Shown in pieces: positions 4,174 through 51,744 of a stretch of DNA of 64,000 nucleotides (positions are counted from its first letter, which is position 1; each line of letters begins with the position of its first letter). The translations under genes were made by a program, and so were the position numbers. Below the pieces are notes generated by a model, which saw nothing but the letters and a program-made list of their open reading frames with translations, was not told the DNA's origin and searched no databases. This DNA is from Streptomyces sp. Q6. Lineage in GTDB: Bacteria; Actinomycetota; Actinomycetes; Streptomycetales; Streptomycetaceae. The stretch covers positions 1,550,001 to 1,614,000 of the forward strand of contig NZ_CP146022.1 in assembly GCF_036967205.1 (NCBI RefSeq), read 5' to 3'.

Positions 4174-4194
4174 CTCTTCCCGTGCTTCCGGTTG

Positions 4195-4223: not shown

Positions 4224-4408
4224 TGCGGATGGCCCCGTCTACGACTCGTCCCGAATCCGACGACGAACCGTCCCTGACGTGGAGACGCAATGTGCCAAAG
4301 GACGAGTCTAACGGGGGGGTGACGTGTGCGATTACGCGCACCTGTCGCCCGCCACCGCCCTGCTCGCGATCCTTCGGATCACTCTTCTTGCCCGTGGGGC
4401 CCTGGCAC

Positions 4409-8413: not shown

Positions 8414-8419
8414 TACACA

Positions 8420-35279: not shown

Positions 35280-35462
35280 CGGAACCACCTCGCCGCCACT
35301 CACTGACTCGTCTACGAATACTCGTGACCGAACATATCGCGAGCGTCCGGGACGGTCAATACGCGATGCATCGCGAATCAGCGCGGCCCTCCCCTGCCGG
35401 GTGAGCACTTGGGTGCGACGTCGACACGGTCATGTCATCCCGGCGAAACAGCGCGCCCCTAA

Positions 35463-35482
35463 TTTCTGTCGCCCGACAGGAA
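35463..35482. promoter_or_regulatory. Near-palindromic operator, copy 2 (APC permease)
   Basis: TTTCTGTCG-CC-CGACAGGAA, one mismatch from perfect dyad symmetry, 27 nt upstream of the permease start. The preceding CCCTAA is also shared, giving a 15-nt block identical to the copy before the guanidine/urea operon at 43676-43690. TAATTT at the left edge may be the -10 box, so a bound repressor would cover the promoter. Confidence 0.7.
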
Positions 35483-35509
35483 TCACGATTCCAGGCAGGT
35501 GCTGCGCCC

Positions 35510-37057
35510 GTGACCACCCTCGCCCCCTCCGACGACCACCCGTCCCGGTCCCTGCCCGACGACGCCTCGCTCACCGAGTTCGGCTACCGCCAGGAGCTGC
35601 ACCGCAGCCTCGGCCGGTACGCGTCGTTCGCCGCGGGCTTCTCCTTCATCTCGGTCCTGACGACCGTCTTCCAGTTCTTCGCCGTCGGCTACGCGTTCGG
35701 CGGCCCGGTCTTCTTCTGGACCTGGCCGGCCGTGCTCGTCGGGCAGTTGCTCGTCGCCGCGTGCTTCGCCGAACTCGCCGCGCGCTACCCGATCTCGGGC
35801 GCGATCTACCAGTGGTCGTCCCGGCTCTCCACGCCGTCCTTCGGCTGGTTCGCGGGCTGGATCATGGTGATCGGACAGATCGTGGTCGTGGCGGCGGCCG
35901 CGCTCGCGCTCCAGATGGTGATGCCGCCGCTGTGGTCGGGGTTCCAGTTCGTCGGCGGCGACCCCTCGCCCACGTCGGCGACGGGCGCGGCGAACGCGGC
36001 GGTCCTCGGTGTGGTCCTGCTGGCGCTCACCACACTGGTGAACGTCGTCGACAACCGCGTGATGTCCCTGATCAACCGGGTCGGCGTGAGCGCCGAGATC
36101 ATCGGCGCGGTGCTCATCGTGGTGCTGCTGCTCACCCACTCCGAACGGTCCCCCGGCATCACCTTCCATCTGGGCACGGCCGGTCAATCGGGCCTCCTCG
36201 CCGCGCTGTTGACCGGCTCGCTCACCGCCGCGTACGTCCTGATCGGCTTCGACAGCGCCGGCGAGATGAGCGAGGAGACGCACCAGCCGCGCCGCACCTC
36301 GCCCCGGACGATCCTCACCGCGCTCGGCGCCGCGGGCCTGCTCGGCGGGCTGCTCGTGCTCGGCGGCCTCCTCGCGGCGCCCAGCCTCACCGACGGCGGC
36401 CTCGCCTCGGGCGGCCTGAGCTACGTCCTCACCAGCAGCCTCGGCGACGGCGTCGGCCGGGTCCTGCTCGCCGACGTGGTGATCGCCATCGCCGTGGCGA
36501 CGCTCGCCATCCAGACGGCGGCGTGCCGGATGCTCTTCTCGATGGCCCGCGACGGGGTGCTGCCCTGTTCCCGCGCCCTGTCCCGGGTCAGCCCGCGCAC
36601 CGGCATGCCGACGGGCCCGGCCCTGGTGGTCGGTGTCTTCGCGGCGGCCCTGCTCCTGCTGAACTTCGCGTCACCGGACGCCTTCCTCGCCATCGGCACG
36701 ACCTGCATCGTGCTGCTGTACCTGGCGTACGCGATGGTGACCGGCCCGATGCTGGTGCGCAGGCTGCGCGGCCACTACCGGGGCGCCGCCACGGACGGCA
36801 CCGACGAGACGGGCCGCCCCCTCTTCTCCCTGGGCCGCTGGGGCCTGCCGGTCAACGCCCTCGCCCTGCTCTACGGCCTCTTCATGACCGTCAACCTGGC
36901 GTGGCCCCGGGCCGCGGTGTACGACCCGACGGGCGGGCACTGGTACTTCCAGTGGTTCACGGTCCTGTTCCTGGGCGCGGCGGTGGGCGCGGGTGCCGCG
37001 TTCCGCTGGACCCGGAGGCAGCGCGGCCGGGCGCGGGCCGCGGTGGCCACCGCGTAA
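35510..37057 (+). CDS. APC-superfamily amino acid/amine permease
   Basis: A 515-residue secondary transporter with about twelve hydrophobic segments. Family signatures are SLGRYASFAAGFSFISVLTT near TM1, ARYPISGAIYQWSS, YVLIGFDSAGEMSEETHQPR (the GFD..ge.seE motif of TM6-7) and ACRMLFSMARDGVLP. Related transporters carry amino acids, choline or GABA-type amines. The operator shared with the carboxylase operon suggests its substrate is guanidine, urea or a parent compound, but this is inference. The GTG start has GGCAGGTG 8 nt upstream. Confidence 0.9.
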   Translation: MTTLAPSDDHPSRSLPDDASLTEFGYRQELHRSLGRYASFAAGFSFISVLTTVFQFFAVGYAFGGPVFFWTWPAVLVGQLLVAACFAELAARYPISGAIYQWSSRLSTPSFGWFAGWIMVIGQIVVVAAAALALQMVMPPLWSGFQFVGGDPSPTSATGAANAAVLGVVLLALTTLVNVVDNRVMSLINRVGVSAEIIGAVLIVVLLLTHSERSPGITFHLGTAGQSGLLAALLTGSLTAAYVLIGFDSAGEMSEETHQPRRTSPRTILTALGAAGLLGGLLVLGGLLAAPSLTDGGLASGGLSYVLTSSLGDGVGRVLLADVVIAIAVATLAIQTAACRMLFSMARDGVLPCSRALSRVSPRTGMPTGPALVVGVFAAALLLLNFASPDAFLAIGTTCIVLLYLAYAMVTGPMLVRRLRGHYRGAATDGTDETGRPLFSLGRWGLPVNALALLYGLFMTVNLAWPRAAVYDPTGGHWYFQWFTVLFLGAAVGAGAAFRWTRRQRGRARAAVATA

Positions 37058-37088
37058 GGAAGCCCCTCTTCCCTCGTACCCTTGCCCG

Positions 37089-38036
37089 GTGACCCGCCGC
37101 TCCCCCCGCACCCCGCCCTCCCCGCTCCCCCAGCGCGACGGGGTCGACCCCGTGCGGGTGCGGCTGCCGGTCGACGGGGAGTGGCGGACCGTACGGGACC
37201 ACCTCGTGGGGCGGCTGGCGGCGGGCGACGGGGTGATCGACGCGATGATCGGCGCGGGCCGGATCGTGCGGGCGGACGGGTCCGCCGTCACCGCCGACAC
37301 CCCGTACGAACCCGGCGGGCACGTCTGGTTCCACCGGGACCTCGCGCCCGAGACGCCCGTGCCGTTCGGCGTCGACCTCGTCTACCGCGACGAGCACATC
37401 GTCGTCGCGGACAAGCCGCACTTCCTGGCGACGACACCGCGCGGCAGCCATGTCGCGCAGACCCTGCTGGCGCGGCTGCGGCGGGAGACCGGCATCCCCT
37501 CGATCGGCCCCGCGCACCGGCTCGACCGGCTGACCGCGGGGCTCGTCCTGTTCGTCGTACGACCGGAGGAGCGCGGCCGGTACCAGACCCTGTTCCGGGA
37601 CCGGCTCGTCCGCAAGGAGTACGAGGCGGTCGCCGCGTACGACCCCGGCGTCGCGCTGCCCGTCACCGTGCGCAGCCGGATCGAGAAGGAGCGCGGGGTG
37701 CTCACCGCCCAGGAGATCCCGGGCGGCGAGGTCAACGCCGAGAGCCATGTCCGACTGGCCGCGCGCCGCGGCCCGTGGGGGCTGTACGCGCTCACGCCGC
37801 ACACCGGCCGCACCCATCAGCTGCGCGTCCACATGAACAGCCTCGGCCTGCCGATCCTCGGCGATCCGCTCTATCCGCGGATCGCCGAGCCGGTCGCCCC
37901 GGACGACTTCCGCAGGCCCCTCCAACTCCTGGCACGCACGCTGGAGTTCAGGGATCCGGTGACCGGGATCGAGCACCGGTTCACCAGCGGACGCGCCCTT
38001 GAGGCCTGGGAGTCGTACGACAGCTGGGATCAGTAG
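37089..38036 (+). CDS. RluA-family pseudouridine synthase
   Basis: An RNA pseudouridine synthase of 315 residues. The core begins VDLVYRDEHIVVADKPHFLA. The catalytic motif is GPAHRLDRLTAGLVLF, containing the RLD Asp, and ALTPHTGRTHQLRVHMNSLG and ILGDPLYP are later RluA motifs. The N terminus (about 1-90) may contain an S4-like region (VRDHLVGRLAAGDGVIDAMI). The RNA target is not deducible. It lies 31 nt after the permease on the same strand, and its end overlaps the convergent P450 by 7 bp. Confidence 0.92.
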   Translation: MTRRSPRTPPSPLPQRDGVDPVRVRLPVDGEWRTVRDHLVGRLAAGDGVIDAMIGAGRIVRADGSAVTADTPYEPGGHVWFHRDLAPETPVPFGVDLVYRDEHIVVADKPHFLATTPRGSHVAQTLLARLRRETGIPSIGPAHRLDRLTAGLVLFVVRPEERGRYQTLFRDRLVRKEYEAVAAYDPGVALPVTVRSRIEKERGVLTAQEIPGGEVNAESHVRLAARRGPWGLYALTPHTGRTHQLRVHMNSLGLPILGDPLYPRIAEPVAPDDFRRPLQLLARTLEFRDPVTGIEHRFTSGRALEAWESYDSWDQ

Positions 38037-39532
38037 CCGCGCCACCAGCGCAGGAAGCGCTGCCAGGCGCCGAGTTTGCGGTGCGGCCTCTCGGGCGCCG
38101 GGGCGGCCGGGGGCGGTGCCGGTGCCGCCGGTGCGGGCATGGCCTGTGCCTGGGCCGGTGGGGGCGTCGATACCTGCCAGTCCGTGCGCTGCTGCGCCGG
38201 GACCGTGCCCGGCTTGGTGACGACGTCCTGCTGCGCACGCGGGGTGAACTCCACCGGCAGGGCCACCAGATGGCGCGAGAGGATCGTCGAGCGCCACTTC
38301 AACTCGCTCTCCGGAACGGAGAGTTCGGCGTCGGGCAGCCGCATCAGGAACGCGTCGACGCCGATGTCGGCGATGGCGCGCCCGATGTCCTGACCGGGGC
38401 ACTCGTGCGGGCCGCCACCGAACGCGAGGTGCGAGCGGTTGCCCATCATGTGCGCGGTCGGGTCGGGCCGCACCGCCGGGTCCACGTTGCCCGGCTGGAT
38501 GCCGAAGATCAGGCCGTCGCCCGCGCGGATGTACTGCCCGCCGAGCTCGGTGTCGACCTTGGCGAAGTAGCCGACCATGGCGCTGAACGGCGGCTCGTCC
38601 CACAGCGACTGCTCGACGGCCTCGGGCACCGTCATCTGCCCGCCGTTGAGCTGGGCGCGGAAGCGGGGGTCGGTGAGGACGACCCGCAGCACGTTGGCGA
38701 TGAGGTTGGCCGTGGCCTCGTACGCGGCGATGAGGATGAGCCGCAGGTGCTGGCCGACCTCGTCGTCCGTGAGTCCGGCCGCGTCGGCGATGAGGCCGCT
38801 GGTGAAGTCGTCCTCGATGGGGTCGGCCCGGCGCCGCACGGCGAGGTCCATCAGGATGCTCATGATGAACTCGTTGCTGGCGATGGCCGTCTCGGTGCCC
38901 TTGAGCATGTCGCGTGCGGCCTGCACGAAGCGCTCGCTGTACGCCTCGGGCGCGCCGAGCACGTCCAGCATCACCATCATCGGCAGGTGCTCGGCGAACT
39001 CGCTGACGACCTCGCAGGTGCCGCGCTCGGAGAACCGGTTGATGATCTCCTGGGTGGCCTTGTTGATGCTGCGGCGCAGGGCGCGGTGCTGGATCGTCTC
39101 GACGGCGGCGGTGACCGCGCCGCGCAGCCGCAGGTGCTCGGCGCCCTCGGCCATCGAGCAGATGGGCTGCCAGCCGAACACCGGGGCGAGCGGGTGCGTG
39201 GGCTTGACGGTGCCGTTCTTCAGGGCGGTCCAGTTGCGGGCGTCGCGGTTGAACTGGGACGTGCCGCGCACCATCTGGAGGTTCTCGCTGTGGCCGAGCA
39301 CCGCCCACATGCGGACGTCGTCGTGGATCAGCACCGGGGCGACGGCGCCGTGTTCGGCGCGGAGTTTCTCGTAGACGGCCGCGAGGTCCTCGTCGGCCTC
39401 GGGCCCGTAGAGCCGGCGCAGTCCGTCCGGGCCGAGGGCGTGCGCGGGGCAGCCGGGCGGCGGGGCGGCCGAGGGGTCCCCGAAGGAGTCGAATCCGGTC
39501 GGTGACTGGGAGGGCTGGGAGGGAGGCGTCAC
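38030..39532 (-). CDS. Conservon cytochrome P450 (CYP157-type) lacking the EXXR motif
   Basis: A P450 of about 500 residues and last gene of the conservon. The heme-binding loop FGGGPHECPGQDIGRA supplies the Cys ligand. In the K helix, where E-x-x-R is normally invariant, the sequence is EQSLWDEPPF, so the Arg is missing; this is the known peculiarity of the CYP157 family. The I-helix reads LILIAAYEATANLIAN, without the usual acid-Thr pair. A long Pro/Ala tail ends in WQRFLRWWRGY, possibly a membrane-association element. The GTG start at 39532 has GGAG 8 nt before it; a TTG eleven codons earlier is an alternative. Confidence 0.9.
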   Translation of the reverse strand: MTPPSQPSQSPTGFDSFGDPSAAPPPGCPAHALGPDGLRRLYGPEADEDLAAVYEKLRAEHGAVAPVLIHDDVRMWAVLGHSENLQMVRGTSQFNRDARNWTALKNGTVKPTHPLAPVFGWQPICSMAEGAEHLRLRGAVTAAVETIQHRALRRSINKATQEIINRFSERGTCEVVSEFAEHLPMMVMLDVLGAPEAYSERFVQAARDMLKGTETAIASNEFIMSILMDLAVRRRADPIEDDFTSGLIADAAGLTDDEVGQHLRLILIAAYEATANLIANVLRVVLTDPRFRAQLNGGQMTVPEAVEQSLWDEPPFSAMVGYFAKVDTELGGQYIRAGDGLIFGIQPGNVDPAVRPDPTAHMMGNRSHLAFGGGPHECPGQDIGRAIADIGVDAFLMRLPDAELSVPESELKWRSTILSRHLVALPVEFTPRAQQDVVTKPGTVPAQQRTDWQVSTPPPAQAQAMPAPAAPAPPPAAPAPERPHRKLGAWQRFLRWWRGY

Positions 39533-39593
39533 GGTGATCGCTCCGGTCGTGTGGTCAACAGTCAACTGAGGGGTGGGAGTCGGGAGGTGCCGG

Positions 39594-40244
39594 TCAGCCC
39601 TGATGCAGGGCCATCTCGTGCAGATAGCGCATCAGGGTCATCAGGACGTCGCGGCTGGAGGCCCTGCGGCGGGCGTCGCACTCGATGATCGGGACGTGCT
39701 GGTCCAGATCGAGGGCCTTGCGCAGCTCCTCGGCGGGATAGCGCGGGCCGTCCGGGAACGCGTTGTTGGCGATGACGAACGGCACGCCGCGCTCCTCCAG
39801 ACGTCCGATCACGTCGAAGCTGACCTCCAGGCGGCGGGTGTCGATGAGCACGACGGCGCCCAGCGCCCCCTCGAACAGGCCGTTCCACAGGAACCAGAAG
39901 CGCTCCTGGCCGGGCGTCCCGAAGAGGTAGAGGACGAGTTCGTCGGTGATCCCGATCCGGCCGAAGTCCATGGCCACGGTCGTGGCGGTCTTCGTCTCCG
40001 AGCCGTAGTTGTCGTCGACGCCGATGCCCGCCTGCGTCATGGTCTCTTCGGTGGTGAGCGGGCGGATCTCGCTGACGGACCCCACCATCGTCGTCTTGCC
40101 GACGCCGAATCCGCCGACGATGACGATCTTCACGGCCGAGGTGACCGTCTCCGGCATCCGGTCCTCGGCGCGCGGTCCCGGGATGTGCACGCTGCCGACC
40201 ACCAGGTCGGCGGCGCCGGTCGCGTCAGAGCTTCTGTAGTCCAT
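39594..40244 (-). CDS. Conservon Ras-like GTP-binding protein (CvnD/RarD)
   Basis: A small GTPase-like signalling protein of 216 residues. The P-loop is VGGFGVGKTTMVGSVSE, the switch II/G3 region is LYLFGTPGQERFW, and ANNAFPDG occupies the NKxD position in a diverged form. The N terminus has a short extension. In conservons this protein assembles at the membrane with the A, B and C products, a system compared with G-protein signalling. It overlaps the DUF742 gene by 20 nt. Confidence 0.92.
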   Translation of the reverse strand: MDYRSSDATGAADLVVGSVHIPGPRAEDRMPETVTSAVKIVIVGGFGVGKTTMVGSVSEIRPLTTEETMTQAGIGVDDNYGSETKTATTVAMDFGRIGITDELVLYLFGTPGQERFWFLWNGLFEGALGAVVLIDTRRLEVSFDVIGRLEERGVPFVIANNAFPDGPRYPAEELRKALDLDQHVPIIECDARRRASSRDVLMTLMRYLHEMALHQG

Positions 40245-40632
40245 GCATCACCGCTTCGAGGAGGGAACGGTCGGCGGTCGCACCCCGGATCACCGGTGCG
40301 CGCGCCTGGACCAGTTCGGCCGCGAGGAGTTCGCCGAGCAGCACGGTGACCACGCTGAACGGCAGGCTCAGATAGGCCGAGATCTCGGCCGTGGACAGGG
40401 GCGTGTGGCACATCCGTAAGACGGCGACCTGTTCGGGGGTCGCCGAGCGGGGCGGGTCCGCGCGCGCCACGATCAGGGTGACCAGATCGAGCGTCGCGCG
40501 GTCCGCGCCCTCGGTGCCGCCCGTGATGACGTACAGGCGCTCGGGGTCGATCGCCTTTCCGTCCTGCGGGCCCCGCCGCTCGCGCTGCGGGGGCGGTTCC
40601 CGGAACGGTGGTTCGGGGGGACGGGGACTCAT
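40225..40632 (-). CDS. Conservon DUF742 protein (CvnC/RarC)
   Basis: A 135-residue protein with a Pro-rich N terminus and the DUF742 domain: RLYVITGGTEGADRATLDLV, LSTAEISAYLSLPFSVVTVL and LLEAVMHGLQKL at the C terminus. The middle segment looks like a winged helix, but DNA binding is not established. Its ATG overlaps the previous stop (ATGA). Confidence 0.93.
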   Translation of the reverse strand: MSPRPPEPPFREPPPQRERRGPQDGKAIDPERLYVITGGTEGADRATLDLVTLIVARADPPRSATPEQVAVLRMCHTPLSTAEISAYLSLPFSVVTVLLGELLAAELVQARAPVIRGATADRSLLEAVMHGLQKL

Positions 40633-41036
40633 ACGGTCTGGCCGTTGCGTCGCGGCGGGCTCGTCAGATGGGCTCCGATCCGGATGACGAGATCGCGCAT
40701 CTGGTGGCTGACGAGTCCGGCGTCCACGAACTGGTCCGCGAGGACCGCCAGATACGCGCCCTTGCCCGCGGCCATCAGATAGAAGAAGCCCCCGTTGACC
40801 TCGATGATGACCATGTTCATGGTGCCGTCGCTGTCCGGGATCTCGGTCGCGACGGCGGACGCCAGCGACTGAAGTCCCGCGCAGGCGGCGGCGATCCGGT
40901 CCGCCGCGTCCGGATCACCTCCGTAGCGGGCGATGCGCAGACCGTCCGAGGACAGCACCACCACCTGATGCACATTGGGCACGCACTCGGCGAGCTCCTT
41001 GAGCATCCAGTCGAAATTGGCGCGTTGCTGGATCAC
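40629..41036 (-). CDS. Conservon roadblock/LC7-domain protein (CvnB/RarB)
   Basis: A 135-residue roadblock-fold protein, probably regulating the small GTPase. The domain spans FDWMLKELAECVPNVHQVVV to GAYLAVLADQFVDAGLVSHQ. The GTG start (VIQQRANFDWML) overlaps the stop of the sensor-kinase-like gene as GTGA. Confidence 0.94.
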   Translation of the reverse strand: MIQQRANFDWMLKELAECVPNVHQVVVLSSDGLRIARYGGDPDAADRIAAACAGLQSLASAVATEIPDSDGTMNMVIIEVNGGFFYLMAAGKGAYLAVLADQFVDAGLVSHQMRDLVIRIGAHLTSPPRRNGQTV

Positions 41037-42640
41037 TGGCGGTCTCCCTCGTCGACCTGCTGGTTGTACGCGTCGTCGTGCGGCTTCTGCGCGCCGCCGC
41101 CGTCCGGGGCGTCCGGCTTCAGCCCGTTCATGAACGCCTCGACCCACAGGCCGGGCTCGGGCTGGGCCGGCTTCGCGTGCTCCGGCTCCGCGGCCGGTCC
41201 CGGCGCGGGCGGCGCGGCGGGCGGCGGCACGCTGAGGTCGGGGTGGCGGGGCGTCACGATGATCTGGTCCTCGATGATCTTCGTGTCGAACTTCCTGCGG
41301 CGCTGGGGCAGCCCGTTGGCCCGCCATTCGGTGACCACCGGGACGTCGTCCTCCATGGCGACGAGCGGCGCGGAGGGGCGCGGGCCCGTGGTGGGGCGCC
41401 GCGTCTTCTTCAGGCGCGGCTCTTCCTTGATCGGTACGCCGTTGTGGTCGACGCGGGGCACCGCAGTGGCGCCGATGCCGTGGGCGAGGCCGGGGGCGGG
41501 CTCCGTGCTCATCATCTCGCGCGGTACGACGAGGACGGCGCGGACGCCGCCGTAAGCGGACTGGCGCAGCGAGATCTGCATGTTGTAGACGGAGCAGAGC
41601 CGGCCGACGATCGCGAGGCCGAGGCGCGGGTTCTCGCCGAGGTCGTTGAGGTCGACGCCGGCCTTGGCCTTGTCCAGCATCCGCTCGACCTTGGCCTGGG
41701 CCTCCTCGCCGAGGCTGACGCCGCCGTCCTCGATCTCGATGGCGATGCCGGTCTGCACCTCGACGGCGGTGACGTGCACCCGGGTAGACGGGGGCGAGTA
41801 GCGGGTCGCGTTGTCGAGGAGTTCGGCGCAGGCGTGGATCAGGGGCTCGACGTAGATGCCCTTGATGGCCGTGTCGCAGATGGCGTGCAGGTCGATGCGC
41901 GGGTATTCGAGGATGCGCGACATGGCGCCGCGCAGCACGCTGTAGAGCTTGACGGGCCGCGGCCACTGGCGGCCGGGGCGGGCGCCGCCGAGGACGGTGA
42001 CGGAGTCGGCGAGGCGGCCGATCAGGGCGGTGCCGTGGTCGATGCGCAGGAGGTCGTCGAAGACCTCCGGGTTGCGGCCGTGGTCCTCCTCCATCTCGCG
42101 CAGTTCCTGGGCCTGCTTGTGCACGATGGCCTGGACGCGGCGGGCGACGGAGACGAACGCGCGCTGGGCGGCGTCGTTCTCGGCGGCCGACCGGTCGACC
42201 TCCTTGAGGCAGCGGCGCATCAGTTCGCGCTCGCCCGCGGTGACGTCACGGAAGGCGGGGTCGGAGTCGCAGGCGTACTGGACGGCGTCCTTGGGGCTCT
42301 CGCCGGCCCGCACCCGGTACACGGCGTGCGGGACGAGTTCCTTGGCGACGCGCAGTGTCCGCTGCTCCTGGCCGGCGATGCGGCTCTCGAGGTCGGCGAC
42401 GTGGTGCGCGTAGTGCGCGCGCTGGCCCCTGATGATGCGGCCGCGCCGGACCGCCTCGGCGGCGACGGCGACGACCAGGAGCGTGCCGAGGGCGCCGCAC
42501 AGGGCGACGGCGAGGCGGGCCGGCTGCGTGACGGTGGCGACGGCCGCTCCGGTGGCGGCGGCCATGACCATCGCGGGGAGCAACAGCACGCGTGTGTAGG
42601 GGACGTCTCGGCCACCGGGAGGCGATTGAACACTCACCAT
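41033..42640 (-). CDS. Conservon sensor-kinase-like membrane protein (CvnA/RarA)
   Basis: A 535-residue protein and first gene of the conservon. Two hydrophobic segments (about 17-37 and 41-60) anchor it. A helical middle region with many charged residues leads to a histidine-kinase-type ATPase domain with N-box ELLDNATRYSPPST and G2 LGLAIVGRLCSVYN. A clear phospho-acceptor His motif (H-box) is not visible, as in other conservon A proteins. The C-terminal third is Pro-rich. The ATG at MVSVQSPPGGRD follows GAGGG by 6 nt. Confidence 0.92.
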   Translation of the reverse strand: MVSVQSPPGGRDVPYTRVLLLPAMVMAAATGAAVATVTQPARLAVALCGALGTLLVVAVAAEAVRRGRIIRGQRAHYAHHVADLESRIAGQEQRTLRVAKELVPHAVYRVRAGESPKDAVQYACDSDPAFRDVTAGERELMRRCLKEVDRSAAENDAAQRAFVSVARRVQAIVHKQAQELREMEEDHGRNPEVFDDLLRIDHGTALIGRLADSVTVLGGARPGRQWPRPVKLYSVLRGAMSRILEYPRIDLHAICDTAIKGIYVEPLIHACAELLDNATRYSPPSTRVHVTAVEVQTGIAIEIEDGGVSLGEEAQAKVERMLDKAKAGVDLNDLGENPRLGLAIVGRLCSVYNMQISLRQSAYGGVRAVLVVPREMMSTEPAPGLAHGIGATAVPRVDHNGVPIKEEPRLKKTRRPTTGPRPSAPLVAMEDDVPVVTEWRANGLPQRRRKFDTKIIEDQIIVTPRHPDLSVPPPAAPPAPGPAAEPEHAKPAQPEPGLWVEAFMNGLKPDAPDGGGAQKPHDDAYNQQVDEGDRQ

Positions 42641-42953
42641 GTATGCCCTCTGAACGATCGGGTCGGGGAAGTTTGCGACGGCTCGCCATGTTTCGTTCCG
42701 GGGATCAATGCGAACCATCGGCACGCAGGGGAACAAGCGCCCGAATACATCTCAACTCGGTGCGCTGCGGGCGAGCTTAGTCCGGCCGGATCATCGCCGA
42801 GTCATATTCAGTAAGGCCCTGAAATAACCCCCGCGACAGGAATACACTCGCTCCCATTTACACGCTCAGCGTCGATTCGCACACATGGAGTGATGGCGTC
42901 CGGGCGTCCGAACACCGCGGCCCCGAAGGGGTGTCGAGCCAGGTGAGCGGGTG
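42641..42953. promoter_or_regulatory. Gene-free gap carrying the conservon promoter
   Basis: Three hundred and thirteen bases between the first conservon gene and the end of the TetR gene. The centre (about 42795-42865) is AT-rich for this genome and is the likely promoter region. TAAGCT on the minus strand (near 42775-42780) is a possible -10 box. I see no gene, repeat or recognised RNA. Confidence 0.4.
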
Positions 42954-43580
42954 TCAGCAGCCGGCGATGCGCAGCGCGGCGTCGGCCGTGGCGGCGGCGA
43001 AGACCGCCACGGAGCGTTCCGGGTCGGAGCGGTGGACGAGAATGACACCTTCGATCAGACCGAACAACAGATCGGTGCGGAGCGAGAGTTCACCCTTGGC
43101 GAGGGTGGAACCGGCGCCGGTGTCGGCGATCAACTGCCGGTACGCGTCCTTGAGTTCGGCCCGTACGGCGTGGAATCCGGCGAACCGCTCGCTGCGCACC
43201 TCGGGCAGCAGATAGAGGCCGCCCAGGTTGTGCGGGCCGCCGCACAGCAGCTCGACGTCGCGGCGGCACAGCTCCCACAGCCGGCCCTCGGCCGGGCGGT
43301 CCACGTCGGCGAGCAGCGCGCGGGCGAGGGTGAGCGAGGGCGTGACGGTCGACTCCAGGAGGTCGGCGAGCAGCTCCTCCTTGCCGGAGACGTAGTGGTA
43401 CATCGTCGCCTGCCGCATCCCGGCGCGCTCGGCGACGGCGCGGGTGGTGGTCGCCGCGTACCCCTTGGTGGTGAACAACTCCGCAGCGGCTTCCAGGAGT
43501 TCGGCACGCGGCGCGAGCCCGCTGTCCGGCCGCTGCGCGGCCCGCGGGCGTCCGACGCGACGCGCTCCCGATGTGCTCAT
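42954..43580 (-). CDS. TetR-family transcriptional regulator
   Basis: A 208-residue regulator. The HTH (about 24-70) reads RAELLEAAAELFTTKGYAAT, TTRAVAERAGMRQATMYHYV. The helical ligand domain covers about 80-208 with VHRSDPERSVAVFAAATADA. Divergent from the DUF1989-carboxylase operon, it is the obvious candidate to bind the palindrome at 43682-43701 and its copy before the APC permease. The ATG (MSTSGARRVGRPR) lacks a clear Shine-Dalgarno sequence and may be leaderless. Confidence 0.9.
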   Translation of the reverse strand: MSTSGARRVGRPRAAQRPDSGLAPRAELLEAAAELFTTKGYAATTTRAVAERAGMRQATMYHYVSGKEELLADLLESTVTPSLTLARALLADVDRPAEGRLWELCRRDVELLCGGPHNLGGLYLLPEVRSERFAGFHAVRAELKDAYRQLIADTGAGSTLAKGELSLRTDLLFGLIEGVILVHRSDPERSVAVFAAATADAALRIAGC

Positions 43581-43681
43581 ACGGTCGATCGTTGCACATC
43601 CGCCCGCACACACGGCGCGGTGAGGACTCGGTAACGGGCACGCAATGACCGGGCAACGCGGCAGTAGTCGCGGCTCCCTAA

Positions 43682-43701
43682 TTTCTGTCGAGCGACAGAA
43701 A
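43682..43701. promoter_or_regulatory. Perfect 20-bp palindromic operator, copy 1 (guanidine/urea operon)
   Basis: TTTCTGTCG-AG-CGACAGAAA is perfectly symmetric and lies 43 nt upstream of the first DUF1989 gene, in the gap divergent from the TetR gene. The left flank CCCTAA is shared with the second copy at 35463-35482. The length and symmetry fit a TetR dimer site. Confidence 0.75.
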
Positions 43702-43744: not shown

Positions 43745-44572
43745 ATGGCGACAGCGACCACCTACGGAGCCCGCGACCACGCCCGCGCCCAAGCGGGCAC
43801 CCGCGCCGACGCCATGCCGGTGGTCCCGGCCCGCGACTGGGCCGAACCCCCGTGCGAGGCAGGTCACTTGGTGTGGGCGGAGACCGTCGCGGGCGGCAAC
43901 TACACGCACCGCGTCCTGGCCCGCGGCACCGAACTGCGCCTCACCGACCTCACCGGCTCCGCCTGCGCGCACCTGCTCCTCTTCGTCGACGGGCGCCCGT
44001 GGGAGCGGCTGAACGTGGCCGACACCGTGAAGGTGCAGTGGAACGCCCACCTCGGCGAGAACCGCCTGCTCCTGTCCGACCAGGGCCGGGTCCTCGCCTC
44101 GATCGTGGCCGACACGACGGGCGGCCGGCACGACGCGCTGTGCGGCACCTCCACCCTCGTACGGAACGTGCGACGGTACGGGGCCGGGACCGCCGAGTCG
44201 CCGTCGCCGGCCGGGCGGGAGCTGTTCAAGCTGGCCGCCGCCAAGAACGGTCTGACGCCGCGCGACCTGCCGCCCTCCCTCTCCTTCTTCCAGGGCGTGC
44301 GGATCAGCGAGGACGGAGACGTGCGGTTCCTCGGACCGGCGGGTCCGGGGGCGAGCGTGACCCTCCGCGCCGAGCAGGACGTGACGGTGCTGATCGCGAA
44401 CGCGCCGCACCCGTCCGACCCCCAAGACGCCTACGTCTGCGGCCCCTTGGAGGTGCTGGCGTGGCGGGCGGCGCCGACCGGCGCGAAGGACCCGCTCTGG
44501 GACGCCACGCCCGAGGGCCGCCGCGCCTTCCAGAACACCGCCGACTTTCTCGCCTCCAGGGGGATCCAGTGA
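43745..44572 (+). CDS. DUF1989 urea-amidolyase-associated protein, first (carboxyguanidine-deiminase-subunit-like)
   Basis: A 275-residue cytoplasmic protein of the DUF1989 family found beside urea/guanidine carboxylases. Conserved pieces are VAGGNYTHRVLARGTELRLT, CAHLLLFVDGRPWERLNVADT and ADTTGGRHDALCGTST, in which His, Asp and Cys could form a metal or active site. In Pseudomonas the paired DUF1989 proteins (CgdAB) deiminate carboxyguanidine to allophanate. The stop overlaps the next GTG (GTGA), suggesting a fixed ratio with its partner. Confidence 0.85.
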   Translation: MATATTYGARDHARAQAGTRADAMPVVPARDWAEPPCEAGHLVWAETVAGGNYTHRVLARGTELRLTDLTGSACAHLLLFVDGRPWERLNVADTVKVQWNAHLGENRLLLSDQGRVLASIVADTTGGRHDALCGTSTLVRNVRRYGAGTAESPSPAGRELFKLAAAKNGLTPRDLPPSLSFFQGVRISEDGDVRFLGPAGPGASVTLRAEQDVTVLIANAPHPSDPQDAYVCGPLEVLAWRAAPTGAKDPLWDATPEGRRAFQNTADFLASRGIQ

Positions 44573-45246
44573 CCACGTCGACCGCATCGGCCCCGCCCGC
44601 CGCACCGGCCGTCCCGGCCACGCCCGCCACGTTCACCGTCGCCGCACGCGCCGCCTGGTCGTCCGTCGTGCGGGCCGGCGAGACCCTCACCCTCACCGAT
44701 CTGCACGGCAATCAGGCCGTGGACTTCCTCGTGTACGACGCCGCGGACACGACCGTGCGCTACAGCGCGCCCGACACGATCCACGCGCAGGGCGGCATCT
44801 TCCTGACCACGGGCAGCGTGCTGCTGAGCAACGAGCACACCCCGCTGATGACGGTCGTCGCCGACGACGTGGGCCGCCACGACACGGTCGGCGGCGCCTG
44901 CTCCAAGGAGTCCAACACGCTGCGCTACGGCCACCACACCTGGTCGCAGCACGCCTGCGTCGACAACTTCCTCGCCGAGGGCGCCCGTTGGGGGCTCGAC
45001 AAGCGCGATCTCGTCTCGAACATCAACTGGTACATGAACGTCCCCGTGGAGGAGGACGGCACGCTCGGCATCGTCGACGGCCTGTCGGCGCCCGGCCTGA
45101 AGGTGACGCTGCGCGCGGAGCGCGACGTCCTCGTCCTCGTCTCCAACTGCCCGCAGATCAACAACCCGTGCAACGGCTTCGAGCCGACGCCGGTCGAGAT
45201 GACGATCACCGCCGCGCACGCCACTCACGAAGGCAGGGCCGCATGA
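44569..45246 (+). CDS. DUF1989 urea-amidolyase-associated protein, second
   Basis: A 225-residue DUF1989 paralogue of the preceding gene and its likely hetero-oligomer partner. Visible features are LHGNQAVDFLVYDAADTTVR, DDVGRHDTVGGACSKESN and VLVSNCPQINNPCNGFEPTP. His and Cys in GRHD...GGACS correspond to the GGRHDALCG site of the partner. It begins at GTG overlapping the previous stop and ends overlapping the carboxylase ATG (ATGA), so translation of all three is coupled. Confidence 0.87.
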   Translation: MTTSTASAPPAAPAVPATPATFTVAARAAWSSVVRAGETLTLTDLHGNQAVDFLVYDAADTTVRYSAPDTIHAQGGIFLTTGSVLLSNEHTPLMTVVADDVGRHDTVGGACSKESNTLRYGHHTWSQHACVDNFLAEGARWGLDKRDLVSNINWYMNVPVEEDGTLGIVDGLSAPGLKVTLRAERDVLVLVSNCPQINNPCNGFEPTPVEMTITAAHATHEGRAA

Positions 45247-48200
45247 CCTTCGACACGCTGCTCGTCGCCAACCGGGGCGAGATCGCGGCCCGGATCATCC
45301 GCAGCGCGCGCGAGGCGGGGCTGCGCACGGTCGCCGTCTTCTCCGACCCGGACCGCGGGGCGCCGCACGTCCGGCTCGCCGACGAGGCGGTCCGGCTCGG
45401 TCCCGCGCCCGCCAAGGAGTCGTATCTCGACGCGGACCTGATCCTGCGGGCGGCGAAGGACACGGGGGCCGGGGCGATCCACCCGGGCTACGGATTCCTG
45501 TCCGAGGACGCCGGGTTCGCCCGCCGCTGCGCCGACGCGGGCATCGTGTTCGTCGGCCCGACCCCGGACCAACTGGAACTGTTCGGGGCCAAGCACACCG
45601 CCCGCGCGGCGGCCGAGGCGGCCGGGGTGCCGCTCGCGCCCGGCACGGGCCTGCTGCCCGACGTGGACTCGGCGCTCGACGCGGCCGCCACGATCGGCTA
45701 CCCGGTCATGCTCAAGGCCACCGGCGGCGGGGGCGGCATCGGCATGTCGGCCTGCCGCACCCCGGACGAGCTGCGGGACGCGTGGGAGCGGGTGCAGCGC
45801 GTGGCGGCGGCGTCCTTCTCGTCGGCGGGCGTGTTCCTGGAACGGCTCGTCGAGAACGCCCGCCACGTCGAGGTGCAGGTCTTCGGCGACGGCGCGGGCC
45901 GGGTCGTCACGTTCGGCGACCGCGACTGCTCCTTGCAGCGCCGCAACCAGAAGGTGGTGGAGGAGGCCCCGGCGCCCGGCATCCCCGACCACGTACGCGC
46001 ACACCTCGCCACCGCGGCACGGGACTTGTGCGCGAGCGTCGACTACCGCTCCGCGGGGACCGTCGAGTTCGTCTACGACGCCGCTCGCGAGGAGGCGTAC
46101 TTCCTGGAGGTCAACACCCGCCTCCAGGTGGAGCATCCGGTCACCGAGGAGATCTACGGCGTCGACCTCGTCGCGTGGATGCTGCGCCTGGCCCGGGGCG
46201 AGTCGGACGTCGTCCGCGATCCGGGGGCGCCGCGCGGCCACGCCGTCGAGGCGCGGATCTACGCGGAGGACCCGAGCCGTGACCACCGGCCGAGCGCCGG
46301 TCTGCTGACGCGGGTGGAGTTCCCCGCGGGCGTGCGCGTGGACGGCTGGATCGAGACGGGGACCGAGGTCTCCACCGCGTACGACCCGATGCTGGCGAAG
46401 GTCGTCGCGTACGGCACCGACCGCGCGCACGCCCTCGCCCGCCTGGACGACGCGCTGGCCCGCGCCCGCGTCGACGGCATCGAGACGAACCTGGGGCTCG
46501 TCCGCACGGCCCTCGCCGACCCGGAGTTCACCGCGGGCACCCACTCGACGGCGACGCTGGCCCGGGTCACCGACCCGACGCCGCGCATCGAGGTGGTCGC
46601 GGGCGGCACGCTCACCACGGTGCAGGACTGGCCGGGGCGGATCGGGCACTGGCAGGTGGGGGTCCCGCCCTGCGGTCCGATGGACGACCTCTCCTTCCGG
46701 CTCGGCAACCGCGCGCTCGGCAACGACGAGGGAGCGCCGGGTCTCGAATGCACCCTCCAGGGGCCGGAGTTGAGGTTCACGCACCCGACCACGGTGTGTG
46801 TGACGGGCGCCCCGGCGCCGGTCACGGTCGACGGCAGGCCGGTGCCGCTGTGGGAGCCGGTGACCGTCCCGGCGGGCGGCGTCCTCGCCGTCGGCGCCCC
46901 GACCGGGCACGGCCTGCGCACGTACGTCCTGGTCGCGGGCGGCGGGCTCGACGTGCCGCCGTTCCTGGGCAGCGCCGCGACGTTCACGCTCGGCGGCTTC
47001 GGCGGTCACGGCGGCCGGACCCTGCGCACGGGCGACGTCCTGCACGGCGGCTCCTCGACCGAGGGGCCGGCCGTCCCGCCGGCCGAGCGCCCCGCGTTCA
47101 CCTCCTCGTGGACGGTCGGCGTGCTCGAAGGCCCGCACGCCGCACCGGAGTTCTTCACCGAGGACGACATCCACGCGTTCTACGCGGCCGACTGGAAGGT
47201 CCACTTCAACTCGGCCCGCACCGGTGTCCGCCTGGTCGGCCCCAAGCCCCGCTGGTCCCGAACCGACGGCGGCGAGGCGGGCCTGCACCCCTCCAACATC
47301 CACGACACCCCGTACTCGGTCGGCGCGGTCGACTACACCGGTGACATGCCGGTGCTGCTCGGCCCGGACGGCCCCTCGCTCGGCGGTTTCGTCTGCCCGG
47401 CGACGGTCGCCTCCGCCGAGCGCTGGAAGCTGGGCCAGCTGCGCCCCGGCGACACGGTCCGCTTCGCGCCGGTCACGGCGGACGGCGCGGCCCGCCCGGC
47501 CGTCGTCGACGGCGGTGTCCTGGCCCGCGACGGCGACATCACGTACCGGCGCAGCGGCGACGACAACCTGCTCGTCGAGTTCGGCCCGATGCAGCTCGAC
47601 CTGGCGCTGCGGATGCGGGTGCACGCGCTGATGGAGGCGGTGTCGGACGCGGCGCTCACCGGCGTACGGGATCTGACGCCCGGCATCCGCTCGCTCCAGA
47701 TCAAGGTCGACCCCGCCGTCCTGCCCCAGCCCGAACTCCTGCGCCAGGTACGGGACATAGCGTCCGAGCTCCCACCGACGGACGAGCTGACGGTGCCGTC
47801 CCGCACGGTCCACCTGCCGCTCTCCTGGGACGACCCGGCGACCCGCGAGGCCATCGCCCGCTACATGGCGGGGGTGCGCGACGACGCGCCGTGGTGCCCG
47901 TGGAACATCGAGTTCATCCGCCGCGTCAACGGTCTCACCTCGGTCGACGCCGTGTACGCCACGGTCTTCGACGCCGAGTACCTGGTCCTCGGCCTCGGCG
48001 ACGTCTACCTGGGCGCGCCGGTGGCCACCCCGCTCGACCCGCGCCACCGCCTGGTGACGACCAAGTACAACCCGGCCCGCACCTGGACCGCCGAGAACTC
48101 CGTCGGCATCGGCGGCGCGTACCTCTGCGTCTACGGGATGGAGGGCCCCGGCGGCTACCAGTTCGTGGGGCGTACGACGCAGGTCTGGTCGGGGTGGCAG

Positions 48201-48755
48201 CAGCGCGGGGCGTTCGAGCCGGGGGCGCCGTGGCTGCTGCGCTTCTTCGACCGGATCAAGTGGTACCCGGTGTCGCCCGAGGAACTGCTCGAACTCCGCG
48301 CGGACATCACGTCGGGCCGCTTCGTGCCGCGCATCGAGGAGGGCACCTTCTCGCTGCGCGACCACGAGGCGTTCCTGGCGCGCGAGGCGGACTCGATCGC
48401 GGAGTTCCGGGCCACGCAGGGCGCCGCGTTCTCGGCGGAGCGCGACGCGTGGGAGGCGGCCGGCGAGTTCGCCCGCGCCGAGGCGGCGAGCGAGCCCGCA
48501 CCACCCGCCGACGACCTCGCGATTCCGCCGGGCGGCACGGTCGTGGAGGCCGAGTTCGCCGCGAGCGTCTGGCAGGTGAACGTGGCCGAGGGCGACACCG
48601 TGGAGCCGGGAACCCTGCTCGTGTCCCTGGAGGCGATGAAGATGGAGGCCCCGGTGCGCGCGACCAGGTCGGCCCGCGTCCACCAGCTCCTCACCAAGCC
48701 GGGCGCCCAGGTGGAACCGGGCACGCCCTTGCTGATCCTGGCCCCGACCGCCTGA
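45243..48755 (+). CDS. Biotin-dependent guanidine/urea carboxylase
   Basis: ATP- and biotin-dependent carboxylase of 1170 residues. Biotin carboxylase spans about 1-445 (LLVANRGEIAARIIRSAREA, ATP loop ATGGGGGIGMS, active site EVNTRLQVEHPVTEEIYG). The AHS2/KipA domain (about 455-770, WPGRIGHWQVGVPPCGPMDD) and the AHS1/KipI domain (about 790-1005, GDDNLLVEFGPMQLDLALR) form the carboxyltransferase. The C-terminal biotinyl domain has the target Lys in SLEAMKMEAPV. Urea carboxylases share this layout, but the two upstream DUF1989 genes favour guanidine as substrate. The transferase pocket residues that decide this were not assigned. Confidence 0.93.
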   Translation: MTFDTLLVANRGEIAARIIRSAREAGLRTVAVFSDPDRGAPHVRLADEAVRLGPAPAKESYLDADLILRAAKDTGAGAIHPGYGFLSEDAGFARRCADAGIVFVGPTPDQLELFGAKHTARAAAEAAGVPLAPGTGLLPDVDSALDAAATIGYPVMLKATGGGGGIGMSACRTPDELRDAWERVQRVAAASFSSAGVFLERLVENARHVEVQVFGDGAGRVVTFGDRDCSLQRRNQKVVEEAPAPGIPDHVRAHLATAARDLCASVDYRSAGTVEFVYDAAREEAYFLEVNTRLQVEHPVTEEIYGVDLVAWMLRLARGESDVVRDPGAPRGHAVEARIYAEDPSRDHRPSAGLLTRVEFPAGVRVDGWIETGTEVSTAYDPMLAKVVAYGTDRAHALARLDDALARARVDGIETNLGLVRTALADPEFTAGTHSTATLARVTDPTPRIEVVAGGTLTTVQDWPGRIGHWQVGVPPCGPMDDLSFRLGNRALGNDEGAPGLECTLQGPELRFTHPTTVCVTGAPAPVTVDGRPVPLWEPVTVPAGGVLAVGAPTGHGLRTYVLVAGGGLDVPPFLGSAATFTLGGFGGHGGRTLRTGDVLHGGSSTEGPAVPPAERPAFTSSWTVGVLEGPHAAPEFFTEDDIHAFYAADWKVHFNSARTGVRLVGPKPRWSRTDGGEAGLHPSNIHDTPYSVGAVDYTGDMPVLLGPDGPSLGGFVCPATVASAERWKLGQLRPGDTVRFAPVTADGAARPAVVDGGVLARDGDITYRRSGDDNLLVEFGPMQLDLALRMRVHALMEAVSDAALTGVRDLTPGIRSLQIKVDPAVLPQPELLRQVRDIASELPPTDELTVPSRTVHLPLSWDDPATREAIARYMAGVRDDAPWCPWNIEFIRRVNGLTSVDAVYATVFDAEYLVLGLGDVYLGAPVATPLDPRHRLVTTKYNPARTWTAENSVGIGGAYLCVYGMEGPGGYQFVGRTTQVWSGWQQRGAFEPGAPWLLRFFDRIKWYPVSPEELLELRADITSGRFVPRIEEGTFSLRDHEAFLAREADSIAEFRATQGAAFSAERDAWEAAGEFARAEAASEPAPPADDLAIPPGGTVVEAEFAASVWQVNVAEGDTVEPGTLLVSLEAMKMEAPVRATRSARVHQLLTKPGAQVEPGTPLLILAPTA

Positions 48756-48808: not shown

Positions 48809-50473
48809 ATGAACCGGGCAGTGACCAGAGTCCGCGCCGCCTACGCCCGCATCGCCGAGACGGACCGCCCCGAGATCTGGATCGACCTCCGCCCCCGGGC
48901 GGAGGTGGAGGCGGAGGCGGCGGCCGTCCCCGACTATCTCCCCCTGGCCGGAACCCTGTTGGCGGTCAAGGGCAACATCGACGTGGCGGGCCTGCCCACC
49001 ACCGCCGGATGCCCCTCGTACGCGTACCTCCCGGAGGCGGACGCCCCGGCGGTGGCCCGCCTCCGCGCGGCCGGCGCGATCGTCATCGGCACGACGAACC
49101 TCGACCAGTTCGCCACCGGCCTCGTCGGCACCCGCTCCCCGTACGGCGCGGTCAGGAACGCCCTCGACCCGGACCGCATCAGCGGCGGCTCCAGTTCGGG
49201 TTCGGCGGTCGCCGTGGCCCTGGGCATCGCCGACCTCGCCCTCGGCACGGACACGGCGGGCTCGGGCCGCGTCCCCGCCGCCCTGAACGGCATCGTCGGC
49301 CTCAAGCCCACGTACGGCGTCGTCCCGACGGACGGCGTGGTCCCGGCCTGCGCCTCGCTCGACTGCGTCTCCGTCTTCGCCCGTACGGTGGCGCAGGCCG
49401 AGCGCGCCCTGTCGTTCCTGGCGGACCCGGCGCCGGCGGCTCCCGCCCGCGTGCCGGGCCCCTGGCGCATCGCGGTCCCGCGCCCCGGGCAACTGGGCGA
49501 GCTGGCACCAGGATGGGAGGCCGCGTACGAGGATGCGACCCGCCAACTCGCCCTCTCCGGGGCAGAGTTGAAGGAGATCGACCTGACGCCGTTCACCGAG
49601 GCGGCCGCGATGCTCTATGAGGGAGCGTTCGTCGCGGAGCGCTATACGGCGGTGGGCGCCTTCCTCGACAAGGCGAACGGGGCGGACGAGACGCCGGCAC
49701 CCGGTGCGACCGGTGGCGATCTCGATCCCACGGTCGCCGGCATCATCACGCGGGCCCGCGACCTCCCGGCCCACCGGCTCTTCGCCGACCAGGCCCGCCT
49801 GTCCGCACTGCGCACCGCCGCACTCGCCCAACTGGCCGACGTGGACGCCCTGTTGCTGCCGACGACCACCGAACACCCCACCCTCGCCGACGTCGCGGCG
49901 GACCCGCTCGGGGTCAACGCCCGGCTGGGCCGCTTCACCAACTCCACGAACCTCTTCGGCCTGTGCGCCGCGGCCGTCCCCGCGGGCACGGTCCACGGCC
50001 TCCCGTTCGGCGTGATGCTGATCGGCGCCGCGCACACCGACGACCGCCTGGCCCGCATCGCGGAGACCGTCACGACGCCACCCACCCACGTCGCCGTGGT
50101 CGGCGCCCATCTGACCGGCCAGCCACTGAACGGCCAACTCCTGTCTCTGGGCGCCGAGTTCGACCGTACGACGACGACCTCACCCGCGTACCGGCTGCAC
50201 GCCCTGCCCACCGCACCGCCCAAGCCGGGCCTGGTCCACGTGGGCCCGGAGCGGGGCAGGCCGATCGAGGCGGAGGTCTGGCGCATCCCGGCCGCGGGCC
50301 TGGGGCAGCTCCTCACGGCACTCCCCCGGCCCATGACCCTGGGCCGCGTCACCCTCGCCGACGGCGCCGAGGTCCCCGGCTTCCTCTGCGCGCCCGAGGC
50401 GCTCCACGACGCCCCCGACATCACCCACCACGGCGGCTGGCGCGCCTACGTGGCGGCGCAAAGACGTGGTTGA
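48809..50473 (+). CDS. atzF: Allophanate hydrolase
   Basis: Amidase-signature hydrolase that splits allophanate to ammonia and CO2, 554 residues. The Ser-cisSer-Lys triad is present: Lys in LLAVKGNIDVAG, and Ser residues in RISGGSSSGSAVAVA and LGTDTAGSGRVPA. The C-terminal domain (about 425-554), starting at VAVVGAHLTGQPLNGQLLSL, is characteristic of AtzF/DUR1-type enzymes. AGAGGGAG precedes the ATG; another ATG at 48755 overlaps the carboxylase stop and would add 18 residues. It is the last step of the operon. Confidence 0.93.
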   Translation: MNRAVTRVRAAYARIAETDRPEIWIDLRPRAEVEAEAAAVPDYLPLAGTLLAVKGNIDVAGLPTTAGCPSYAYLPEADAPAVARLRAAGAIVIGTTNLDQFATGLVGTRSPYGAVRNALDPDRISGGSSSGSAVAVALGIADLALGTDTAGSGRVPAALNGIVGLKPTYGVVPTDGVVPACASLDCVSVFARTVAQAERALSFLADPAPAAPARVPGPWRIAVPRPGQLGELAPGWEAAYEDATRQLALSGAELKEIDLTPFTEAAAMLYEGAFVAERYTAVGAFLDKANGADETPAPGATGGDLDPTVAGIITRARDLPAHRLFADQARLSALRTAALAQLADVDALLLPTTTEHPTLADVAADPLGVNARLGRFTNSTNLFGLCAAAVPAGTVHGLPFGVMLIGAAHTDDRLARIAETVTTPPTHVAVVGAHLTGQPLNGQLLSLGAEFDRTTTTSPAYRLHALPTAPPKPGLVHVGPERGRPIEAEVWRIPAAGLGQLLTALPRPMTLGRVTLADGAEVPGFLCAPEALHDAPDITHHGGWRAYVAAQRRG

Positions 50474-50643: not shown

Positions 50644-51744
50644 ATGCCCGTAGAGTTCCTCGGCATTGCCGCGACCAACGAAGGCTCCGAAGTGACCGCC
50701 CGCTCGGGCCCGTCCTTCGACAAGGACTACACGCTCCGGCTCGCCCGCGCCCACGAGGAGTACGGCTGGGACCGCATCCTCTTCGCGTACGGCTCCGGCT
50801 CGCCCGACCCGTCGCCCGCCGCCGCCTACATCGCGGCCCGCACGGAGAAGATCCAGATCCTGGTCGCGCACCGGCCGAACGTCTCGTACCCGACGTTCGC
50901 GGCGAAGACGTTCGCCACGCTCGACCGCATCAGCGACGGCCGGCTCGCCGTCCACTTCATCACCGGCGGCAACGACCACGAGCAGCAGCGCGAGGGCGAC
51001 TTCCTCACGAAGGACGAGCGGTACGCCCGCACGCGCGAGGCCATCCAGATCATCAAGAAGGCGTGGACGTCGCACGAGCCGTTCGACCACGAGGGCGCGC
51101 ACTATCGCTTCCGTGACTTCGTGAGCGACACCTTCCCGGTCCAACTCCCGCACCCGCCGGTCTCGTTCGGCGGTTCGTCGCCCGCGGCGTACGCGGCGGG
51201 CGGCGCCGAGGCGGACATCTACTGCCTGTGGGGCGAGCCCCTCGCGCAGACCGCCGAGCAGATCGAGTCGGTCAGGGCGGCGGCGAAGGCGGCGGGCCGT
51301 ACGGACACCCCGCGCATCCAGGTCGCGTTCCGTCCGATCATCGCGCCCACGGAGGAGCTGGCCTGGGAGAAGGCCCACGCGACGCTGGCCCGCATCAAGG
51401 CGCGCAAGGCGGGCAGCCCGCTCTCCCGCCGCCATCCGGTCACGAACCCGCAGAACGCGGGCTCCCAGCGGCTCCTGGCGGCAGCGGCGCAGGGCGAGCG
51501 TCACGACCGCGCGCTGTGGACCCCCACGGCGGCGGAGACGGGCGGCGCGGGCAACTCCACCGCGCTGGTGGGCACACCGGAAACCGTGGCGCAGGCCCTC
51601 CTCGACTACTACGACCTGGGCGTCGACATCCTCTCGGCCCGCGGCTACGACCTGCTGGACGACGCGATCGACTTCGGCCGCCATGTGATCCCGATCGTCC
51701 GAGAAGAGGTCGCGAAGCGGGACGCGGAACGCGCGGCGGCCTAG
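50644..51744 (+). CDS. LLM-class flavin-dependent monooxygenase (alkanesulfonate monooxygenase SsuD-like)
   Basis: An FMNH2-dependent TIM-barrel monooxygenase of 366 residues, likely cleaving a sulfonate or sulfone to release sulfite. Family signatures are EFLGIAATNEGSE, HEEYGWDRILFAYGSGSPDP, LVAHRPNVSYPTFAAKTFAT and VHFITGGNDHEQQREGDFL, with VDILSARGYDLLDD near the end. No transporter or flavin reductase accompanies it. The Cys-rich leader peptide upstream supports regulation by sulfur supply. The exact substrate is uncertain. Confidence 0.88.
   Translation: MPVEFLGIAATNEGSEVTARSGPSFDKDYTLRLARAHEEYGWDRILFAYGSGSPDPSPAAAYIAARTEKIQILVAHRPNVSYPTFAAKTFATLDRISDGRLAVHFITGGNDHEQQREGDFLTKDERYARTREAIQIIKKAWTSHEPFDHEGAHYRFRDFVSDTFPVQLPHPPVSFGGSSPAAYAAGGAEADIYCLWGEPLAQTAEQIESVRAAAKAAGRTDTPRIQVAFRPIIAPTEELAWEKAHATLARIKARKAGSPLSRRHPVTNPQNAGSQRLLAAAAQGERHDRALWTPTAAETGGAGNSTALVGTPETVAQALLDYYDLGVDILSARGYDLLDDAIDFGRHVIPIVREEVAKRDAERAAA

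Follow-up and report, generated by a model that had tools for sequence, protein, structure and literature searches.

Two promoters of an AmtR-type regulon with GlnR-type boxes, probably serving guanidine, in Streptomyces sp. Q6

The 64,000-nucleotide stretch of Streptomyces sp. Q6 that we analysed as a whole, hereafter the window (contig NZ_CP146022.1, positions 1,550,001 to 1,614,000 of the forward strand), holds two transcription units that lie 8 kb apart, each with a palindromic operator, and that appear to form one regulon under a TetR-family repressor of AmtR type. The first unit is a separate APC-superfamily permease gene (35510..37057, plus strand), whose product has TIGR03428, 'permease, urea carboxylase system', as its far best family (next 170.3 bits) but scores 636.8 bits against a curated cut-off of 740.45, for which reason we call it TIGR03428-like and not a member. 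The second is a catabolic operon on the plus strand. It starts with two DUF1989 genes, at 43745..44572 (TIGR03425, 296 bits, over cut-off; a probable carboxyguanidine deiminase subunit) and 44569..45246 (TIGR03424, 327.8 bits, over cut-off), and continues with genes for a biotin-dependent carboxylase, probably a guanidine carboxylase (45243..48755; TIGR02712, 1809 bits), and an allophanate hydrolase (48809..50473; TIGR02713, 663.2 bits, over cut-off). Start and stop codons overlap through the first three genes, the start of the second DUF1989 gene overlapping the stop of the first. The labels 'UAAP2' and 'UAAP1' denote the first and second DUF1989 gene, respectively; the numbering in NCBIfam runs the opposite way. 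The repressor gene (42954..43580, minus strand) is divergent from the operon.

The operator of the catabolic operon, TTTCTGTCGAGCGACAGAAA (43682..43701, plus strand), is a perfect palindrome; 43 nt separate it from the ATG (43745) that opens the first DUF1989 gene, and 101 nt from the TetR gene start (43580). That of the permease, TTTCTGTCGCCCGACAGGAA (35463..35482, plus strand), lies 27 nt before the GTG at 35510, and its right half is one base off the palindrome, a departure that is conserved in relatives. Common to both sites is a 15-nt block, CCCTAATTTCTGTCG (35457-35471 and 43676-43690). An earlier reading made from the letters alone, here the sequence-only reading, had pointed out both palindromes, the 27-nt spacing and the shared block, all confirmed by a position check, and had judged such a match by chance very unlikely, a judgement that counting upholds. 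The two operators are the only matches in the window at up to 3 mismatches, and 100 shuffles gave 0. At this threshold the genome as a whole (8,951,745 bases) contains 4 matches, the two operators at 0 and 1 mismatch and two more at exactly 3, while the reversed control pattern has 0 matches; the two palindromes are thus the only matches within 2 mismatches in 8.95 Mb. Under a model of independent bases, the expected number of chance matches at up to 1 mismatch is about 0.007 at 50% G+C and 0.0007 at an assumed 71%, with a probability of two or more of at most 2.6e-5; the two 3-mismatch sites are near the chance level, 2.9 being expected at 50% G+C and 0.5 at 71%. Shuffles, genome counts and base model together rule out a chance origin of the pair. 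They also rule out a motif scattered over unrelated places of the genome, which the sequence-only reading had named as a way to refute its proposal: all other copies have exactly 3 mismatches, about as many as chance provides. A 3-mismatch site of this genome in locus L003 (1501-1520) may be chance.

Conservation follows the operon closely. At a threshold of up to 2 mismatches, the motif occurs in 50 of 199 surveyed Streptomyces genomes and the reversed control in 3. The second DUF1989 gene is present in 52 of them, as 47 close copies (at least 79% identical) and 5 divergent ones (61-63%), and the motif is found in all 47 close-operon genomes versus 3 of the 152 others (Fisher p 1.7e-42, kinship of the genomes being ignored). 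In every one of the 47 fetched close-operon loci the operator precedes the first DUF1989 gene. A permease site at up to 3 mismatches is present in 45 loci, from 44 operon genomes and genome G139; put differently, of 46 permease matches of at least 73% identity, only a broken copy in genome G097 is without a site. The right half of the operon site is GACAGAAA in 46/47 and that of the permease site GACAGGAA in 43/45, a conserved one-base departure that would predict weaker AmtR binding at the permease. In a second set of 80 named loci, whose species overlap with the first, the operator was found in 67 of the 68 that have the first DUF1989 gene, and a site could be assigned for 53 of 61 permease matches; among the 8 unassigned, the permease start is at or past the locus end in 5, and L183, L191 and L192 do have a permease-type site, but at a distance of about 0.5 to 2 kb upstream of the match instead of adjoining it. 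The remaining 12 named loci, which lack the first DUF1989 gene, yielded no site; in two of them (L163, L179) the contig ends at the TetR gene on the operon side. The 5 divergent Streptomyces loci are arranged as one gene run of permease and enzymes with TetR at the end and, ahead of the permease, a palindrome of the same core, ACCTGTC-n4-GACAGGT. Three loci (L054, L055, L059) have a second, degenerate operator in tandem directly beside the permease operator. An AmtR-like TetR gene in L190 (8572-10615) lies beside fragments of DUF1989 and allophanate hydrolase genes, apparently a decayed operon. Genomes G050 and G054 each have a single site, at 2 mismatches and away from all query genes, and a third 2-mismatch site in G052 (C1:7848258-7848277) may be chance.

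By its sequence the repressor is an AmtR. Its best solved relative is 5e57, 'AmtR', which we take to be the M. smegmatis protein (124.3 bits), followed by 5dxz, 5dy0 and 5dy1, named 'TetR family' only and presumably C. glutamicum AmtR (about 110 bits), and by 5mqq and 6gy3, both named AmtR (102 and 100 bits); the next-best solved protein after this set reaches only 48.8 bits. The recognition-helix stretch RQA(S/T)xY is common to the window protein and the 5e57 and 5dxz fragments, and a TetR tree took in only fragments of two reference AmtRs. The core at both window sites, CTGTC-n4-GACAG, is that of the 22-bp AmtR consensus TAtCTGTCa-n2-cGACAGATAT, which the available part of PMC8864220 gives with reference to Chen et al. 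2013 on AmtRsav. This match, together with the co-occurrence of TetR, operon and motif, argues against the palindromes belonging to another regulator encoded elsewhere, with the adjacent TetR a mere neighbour; so do 14 fetched loci (L085-L093, L099-L103; 13 genomes) that encode an AmtR-like TetR (58-76% identical) with no guanidine operon and in which no operator was found either. In 46 fetched loci the distance from the operator to the start of the TetR gene ranges from 99 to 1011 nt, so that the two do not always adjoin, and this gives the idea of a separate regulator some footing; we nonetheless consider it quite unlikely. The AmtR-like gene of L088 has a pseudouridine synthase and a beta-lactamase-family protein as neighbours.

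AmtR is probably not the only regulator of these promoters, because both of them also contain GlnR-type boxes. In the permease promoter, half-sites that we assign tentatively to GlnR stand at 11-bp steps over 35401..35449 on the plus strand (GTGAG 35401, GGTGC 35412, GACAC 35423, GTCAT 35434, GAAAC 35445), and in the operon promoter over 43620..43668, likewise on the plus strand (GTGAG 43620, GTAAC 43631, GCAAT 43642, GCAAC 43653, GTAGT 43664). When promoters are aligned on the operator and positions counted from its first base, the half-sites of both fall in one register: GTGAG at -62 (42/47), GTAAC at -51 (44/47), GCAAC at -40 (34/47) and GCAAT at -29 (23/47) before the operon, and GACAC at -40 (23/45), GTGAC at -29 (17/45) and GAAAC at -18 (40/45) before the permease. 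The pair GTnAC-n6-GnAAC occurs in 37/47 operon and 31/45 permease promoters, against maxima of 1 and 2 promoters in 200 dinucleotide shuffles. The boxes of the window itself, GTCAT-n6-GAAAC and GTAAC-n6-GCAAT, are imperfect examples of the gTnAc-n6-GaAAc type, and the half-sites fit the GlnR box as given in the accessible portions of PMC3087709 and PMC10704036. Downstream of the half-sites both promoters share CCTAATTT, which contains TAATTT, a putative -10 hexamer overlapping the operator on the plus strand (35460..35465 at the permease, 43679..43684 at the operon).

The two promoters agree in their CCCTAA, in the left half of the operator and in the register of the half-sites, a likeness that would also be expected of a duplicated ancestral promoter without any present TetR control of the permease. 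Two observations make this very improbable: of 46 permease orthologues, 45 retain the operator and the remaining one is broken, while spacers and flanks vary, and in G097 a transporter of another family has the same promoter. There, in the unit beside TetR where relatives have the APC permease, lies a sodium:solute symporter (PF00474; region 2923-4671 minus of locus L051) with a 1-mismatch operator at 4498-4517 and its ATG 30 nt past that operator; GTAAC-n6-GAAAC and CCCTAATTT stand upstream, which is the same promoter type. Elsewhere in this genome (L228, 2882-4305 and 17427-18999) are a permease split over two frames, a fragment of a TetR gene and a likewise broken allophanate hydrolase, and no operator was found at this broken copy at up to 5 mismatches. 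Shared control, and the replacement of the permease by a symporter in G097, suggest that the pathway substrate most likely enters through the permease, which forms a transcription unit of its own.

The regulator, the regulon and the operator type are already known. In M. smegmatis, according to PMC4222082, repression by AmtR extends to a permease, two uncharacterized reading frames, a 'urea carboxylase' and an amidase; the region upstream of the permease gene msmeg_2184 bound AmtR, and the gene itself was expressed more strongly in the amtR mutant and lost nitrogen control in a glnR mutant. The window resembles this system in having AmtR over permease and carboxylase genes together with a GlnR nitrogen response, both here predicted by sequence, and it differs in that amtR is divergent from the operon and not away from its targets, and in that the permease stands apart, 8 kb off, as a unit with its own operator. 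The co-occurrence of the window TetR with permease, two DUF1989 genes, carboxylase and amidase is that known for AmtR: the same text names ten actinobacteria in which AmtR goes together with permease, carboxylase and amidase, S. avermitilis (sav6701, sav6709, sav6698, sav6697) among them. AmtRsav of that species is a close parallel from the same genus, with the same layout by gene numbers (permease some 8 genes off) and the core CTGTC-n4-GACAG; it differs in belonging to another species, and the window operators have outer arms TTT/AAA. C. glutamicum AmtR is a homologous repressor with a palindromic operator, but it regulates more than 30 nitrogen genes, its operator is CTAT-N6-ATAG and it is released by GlnK. 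On the enzyme side, the available parts of PMC12186494 and PMC11410670 describe riboswitch-run guanidine carboxylase operons that share with the window an Asp carboxylase, paired deiminase proteins and allophanate hydrolase, and ammonia oxidizers in which an APC permease beside guanidine genes is a predicted guanidine importer; these operons are under riboswitch control, whereas no guanidine riboswitch was found in the window.

Taken together, these observations suggest, with a probability of roughly 88%, that the window contains an AmtR regulon of two transcription units with GlnR co-control and a guanidine-pathway operon. The sequence-only reading, that one TetR protein represses both units, finds support and is amended in that the TetR protein is AmtR and GlnR-type boxes are also present; the conservation at both promoters that it had asked for is found in relatives that carry the operon. 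An AmtR dimer would bind one operator at each of the two promoters and, to judge from the geometry, with the TAATTT -10 hexamer on the left edge of the operator, bound AmtR would block RNA polymerase. GlnR on the upstream half-sites would activate both promoters under nitrogen limitation, so that each promoter probably integrates GlnR activation with AmtR repression, and the circuit would be fully open only when nitrogen is scarce and a signal releases AmtR. Guanidine would be carboxylated, the two DUF1989 proteins would turn the resulting carboxyguanidine into allophanate by deimination, and hydrolysis would then yield ammonia.

Several points weigh against this reading. The permease score is below the family cut-off, as noted above, and the surveyed genomes are related, so that their counts are not independent. 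Genomes G044 and G097, both 99% complete, are without an intact permease orthologue, and in G044 neither a permease within 20 kb nor a second site at up to 3 mismatches was found; the contig of G001 is also without a permease, in a genome that is 79% complete. G139, conversely, has a permease with operator, and neither operon nor TetR was found in its 1010 contigs. Among 31 class-level loci outside the close group, 14 (L128, from Streptomyces, being one) have the exact core no more than 400 nt upstream of a permease, DUF1989 or TetR gene, and the other 17 are without it (L118 and L122 have near-matches); the operator is therefore not universal for this operon. Finally, urea and amino acids did not release M. 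smegmatis AmtR according to PMC4222082, and the M. smegmatis pathway was read as urea metabolism.

This last point bears on the substrate, since the same regulon could serve urea, broken down by the urea amidolyase route; this is how older annotation and the papers on M. smegmatis have it. The NCBIfam names 'urea carboxylase' and 'permease, urea carboxylase system' point the same way. The carboxylase residues do not: Asp697 of the window carboxylase aligns with K. lactis Asn1330, and the second diagnostic Asp (K. lactis 1584) is present within GLGDVYLG. In the portions of the two papers at hand, guanidine carboxylases are called by Asp at 1330 plus Asp at 1584 (PMC11410670), and Asp goes with guanidine carboxylases and Asn with urea carboxylases (PMC12186494). 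Apart from L131, L132, L133 and L134, Asp occupies the diagnostic position in every locus where patterns located it, 35 in one set and 6 more in another. The operon also has the paired DUF1989 subunits and the allophanate hydrolase that mark the guanidine carboxylase pathway. The DUF1989 pair argues against urea, and so does a urease alpha subunit that scores over cut-off elsewhere in the genome. By residue, the carboxylase would be of guanidine and not urea type, and the regulon probably serves guanidine; we think urea an improbable substrate, though less so than the alternatives dismissed above.

Riboswitches add little to the guanidine reading. An Rfam scan of the window found no guanidine riboswitch, and guanidine-I riboswitches were found in 0/199 Streptomyces genomes with stricter filters that detected the B. 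subtilis control; the search for the other guanidine riboswitch classes extended only to the window and 29 fetched loci, scanned with Rfam at gathering thresholds, the loci being 26 of the 31 class-level ones and 3 from Streptomyces. Two of these 29, both actinomycete loci, have a guanidine-I riboswitch, L134 (7202-7308 plus), directly before the permease, and L133 (10591-10693 minus); neither has a TetR match or an exact operator core. A related operon can evidently be run by a guanidine riboswitch, which does not prove the substrate of the window operon. In the carboxylases of L131 to L134 the diagnostic residue is Met, neither Asp nor Asn, a further point against our reading, and these proteins are only 48-51% identical to the carboxylase of the window; the second DUF1989 proteins of L133 and L134 are only 56-58% identical. 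With this residue and this low identity, the two riboswitches lend the window operon little guanidine support, which leaves the urea route that much more room. The Met variant is perhaps a third substrate class.

Other features of the window stand apart from the regulon. Between its two units (38030-42736 minus) lie genes that, from the translations of their open reading frames, presumably resemble a Streptomyces conservon (kinase-like protein, small GTPase, P450). A luciferase-like monooxygenase gene downstream of the operon (50644-51744 plus) is nearest to alkanesulfonate monooxygenases, under their cut-offs. Rfam matches the Streptomyces sRNA Scr1601 at 8191-8414 on the minus strand (164.2 bits).

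The two palindromes thus appear to mark a real, conserved, two-promoter AmtR-type regulon that is well kept in the Streptomyces that carry it. New here are the conservation survey, the GlnR-type boxes at both promoters, the guanidine-type aspartate and the G097 symporter behind the same promoter. To what is known of AmtR the regulon probably adds two points, service to guanidine and not urea, and integration of GlnR and AmtR at each promoter. Among open-licence PMC papers we found none with both 'AmtR' and 'guanidine' and, in the portions seen, none on GlnR with guanidine and carboxylase in this sense; because neither urea nor amino acids released AmtR of M. smegmatis, guanidine as inducer is of interest. 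We therefore raise, as a speculation that we rate below even odds, that AmtR of this type senses guanidine or carboxyguanidine and forms with GlnR an AND gate of nitrogen hunger and substrate. If this were true, the missing small-molecule inducer of AmtR would be named, the 'urea' AmtR regulon would be recast as a guanidine regulon, and AmtR would be the actinobacterial protein counterpart of the guanidine riboswitches.

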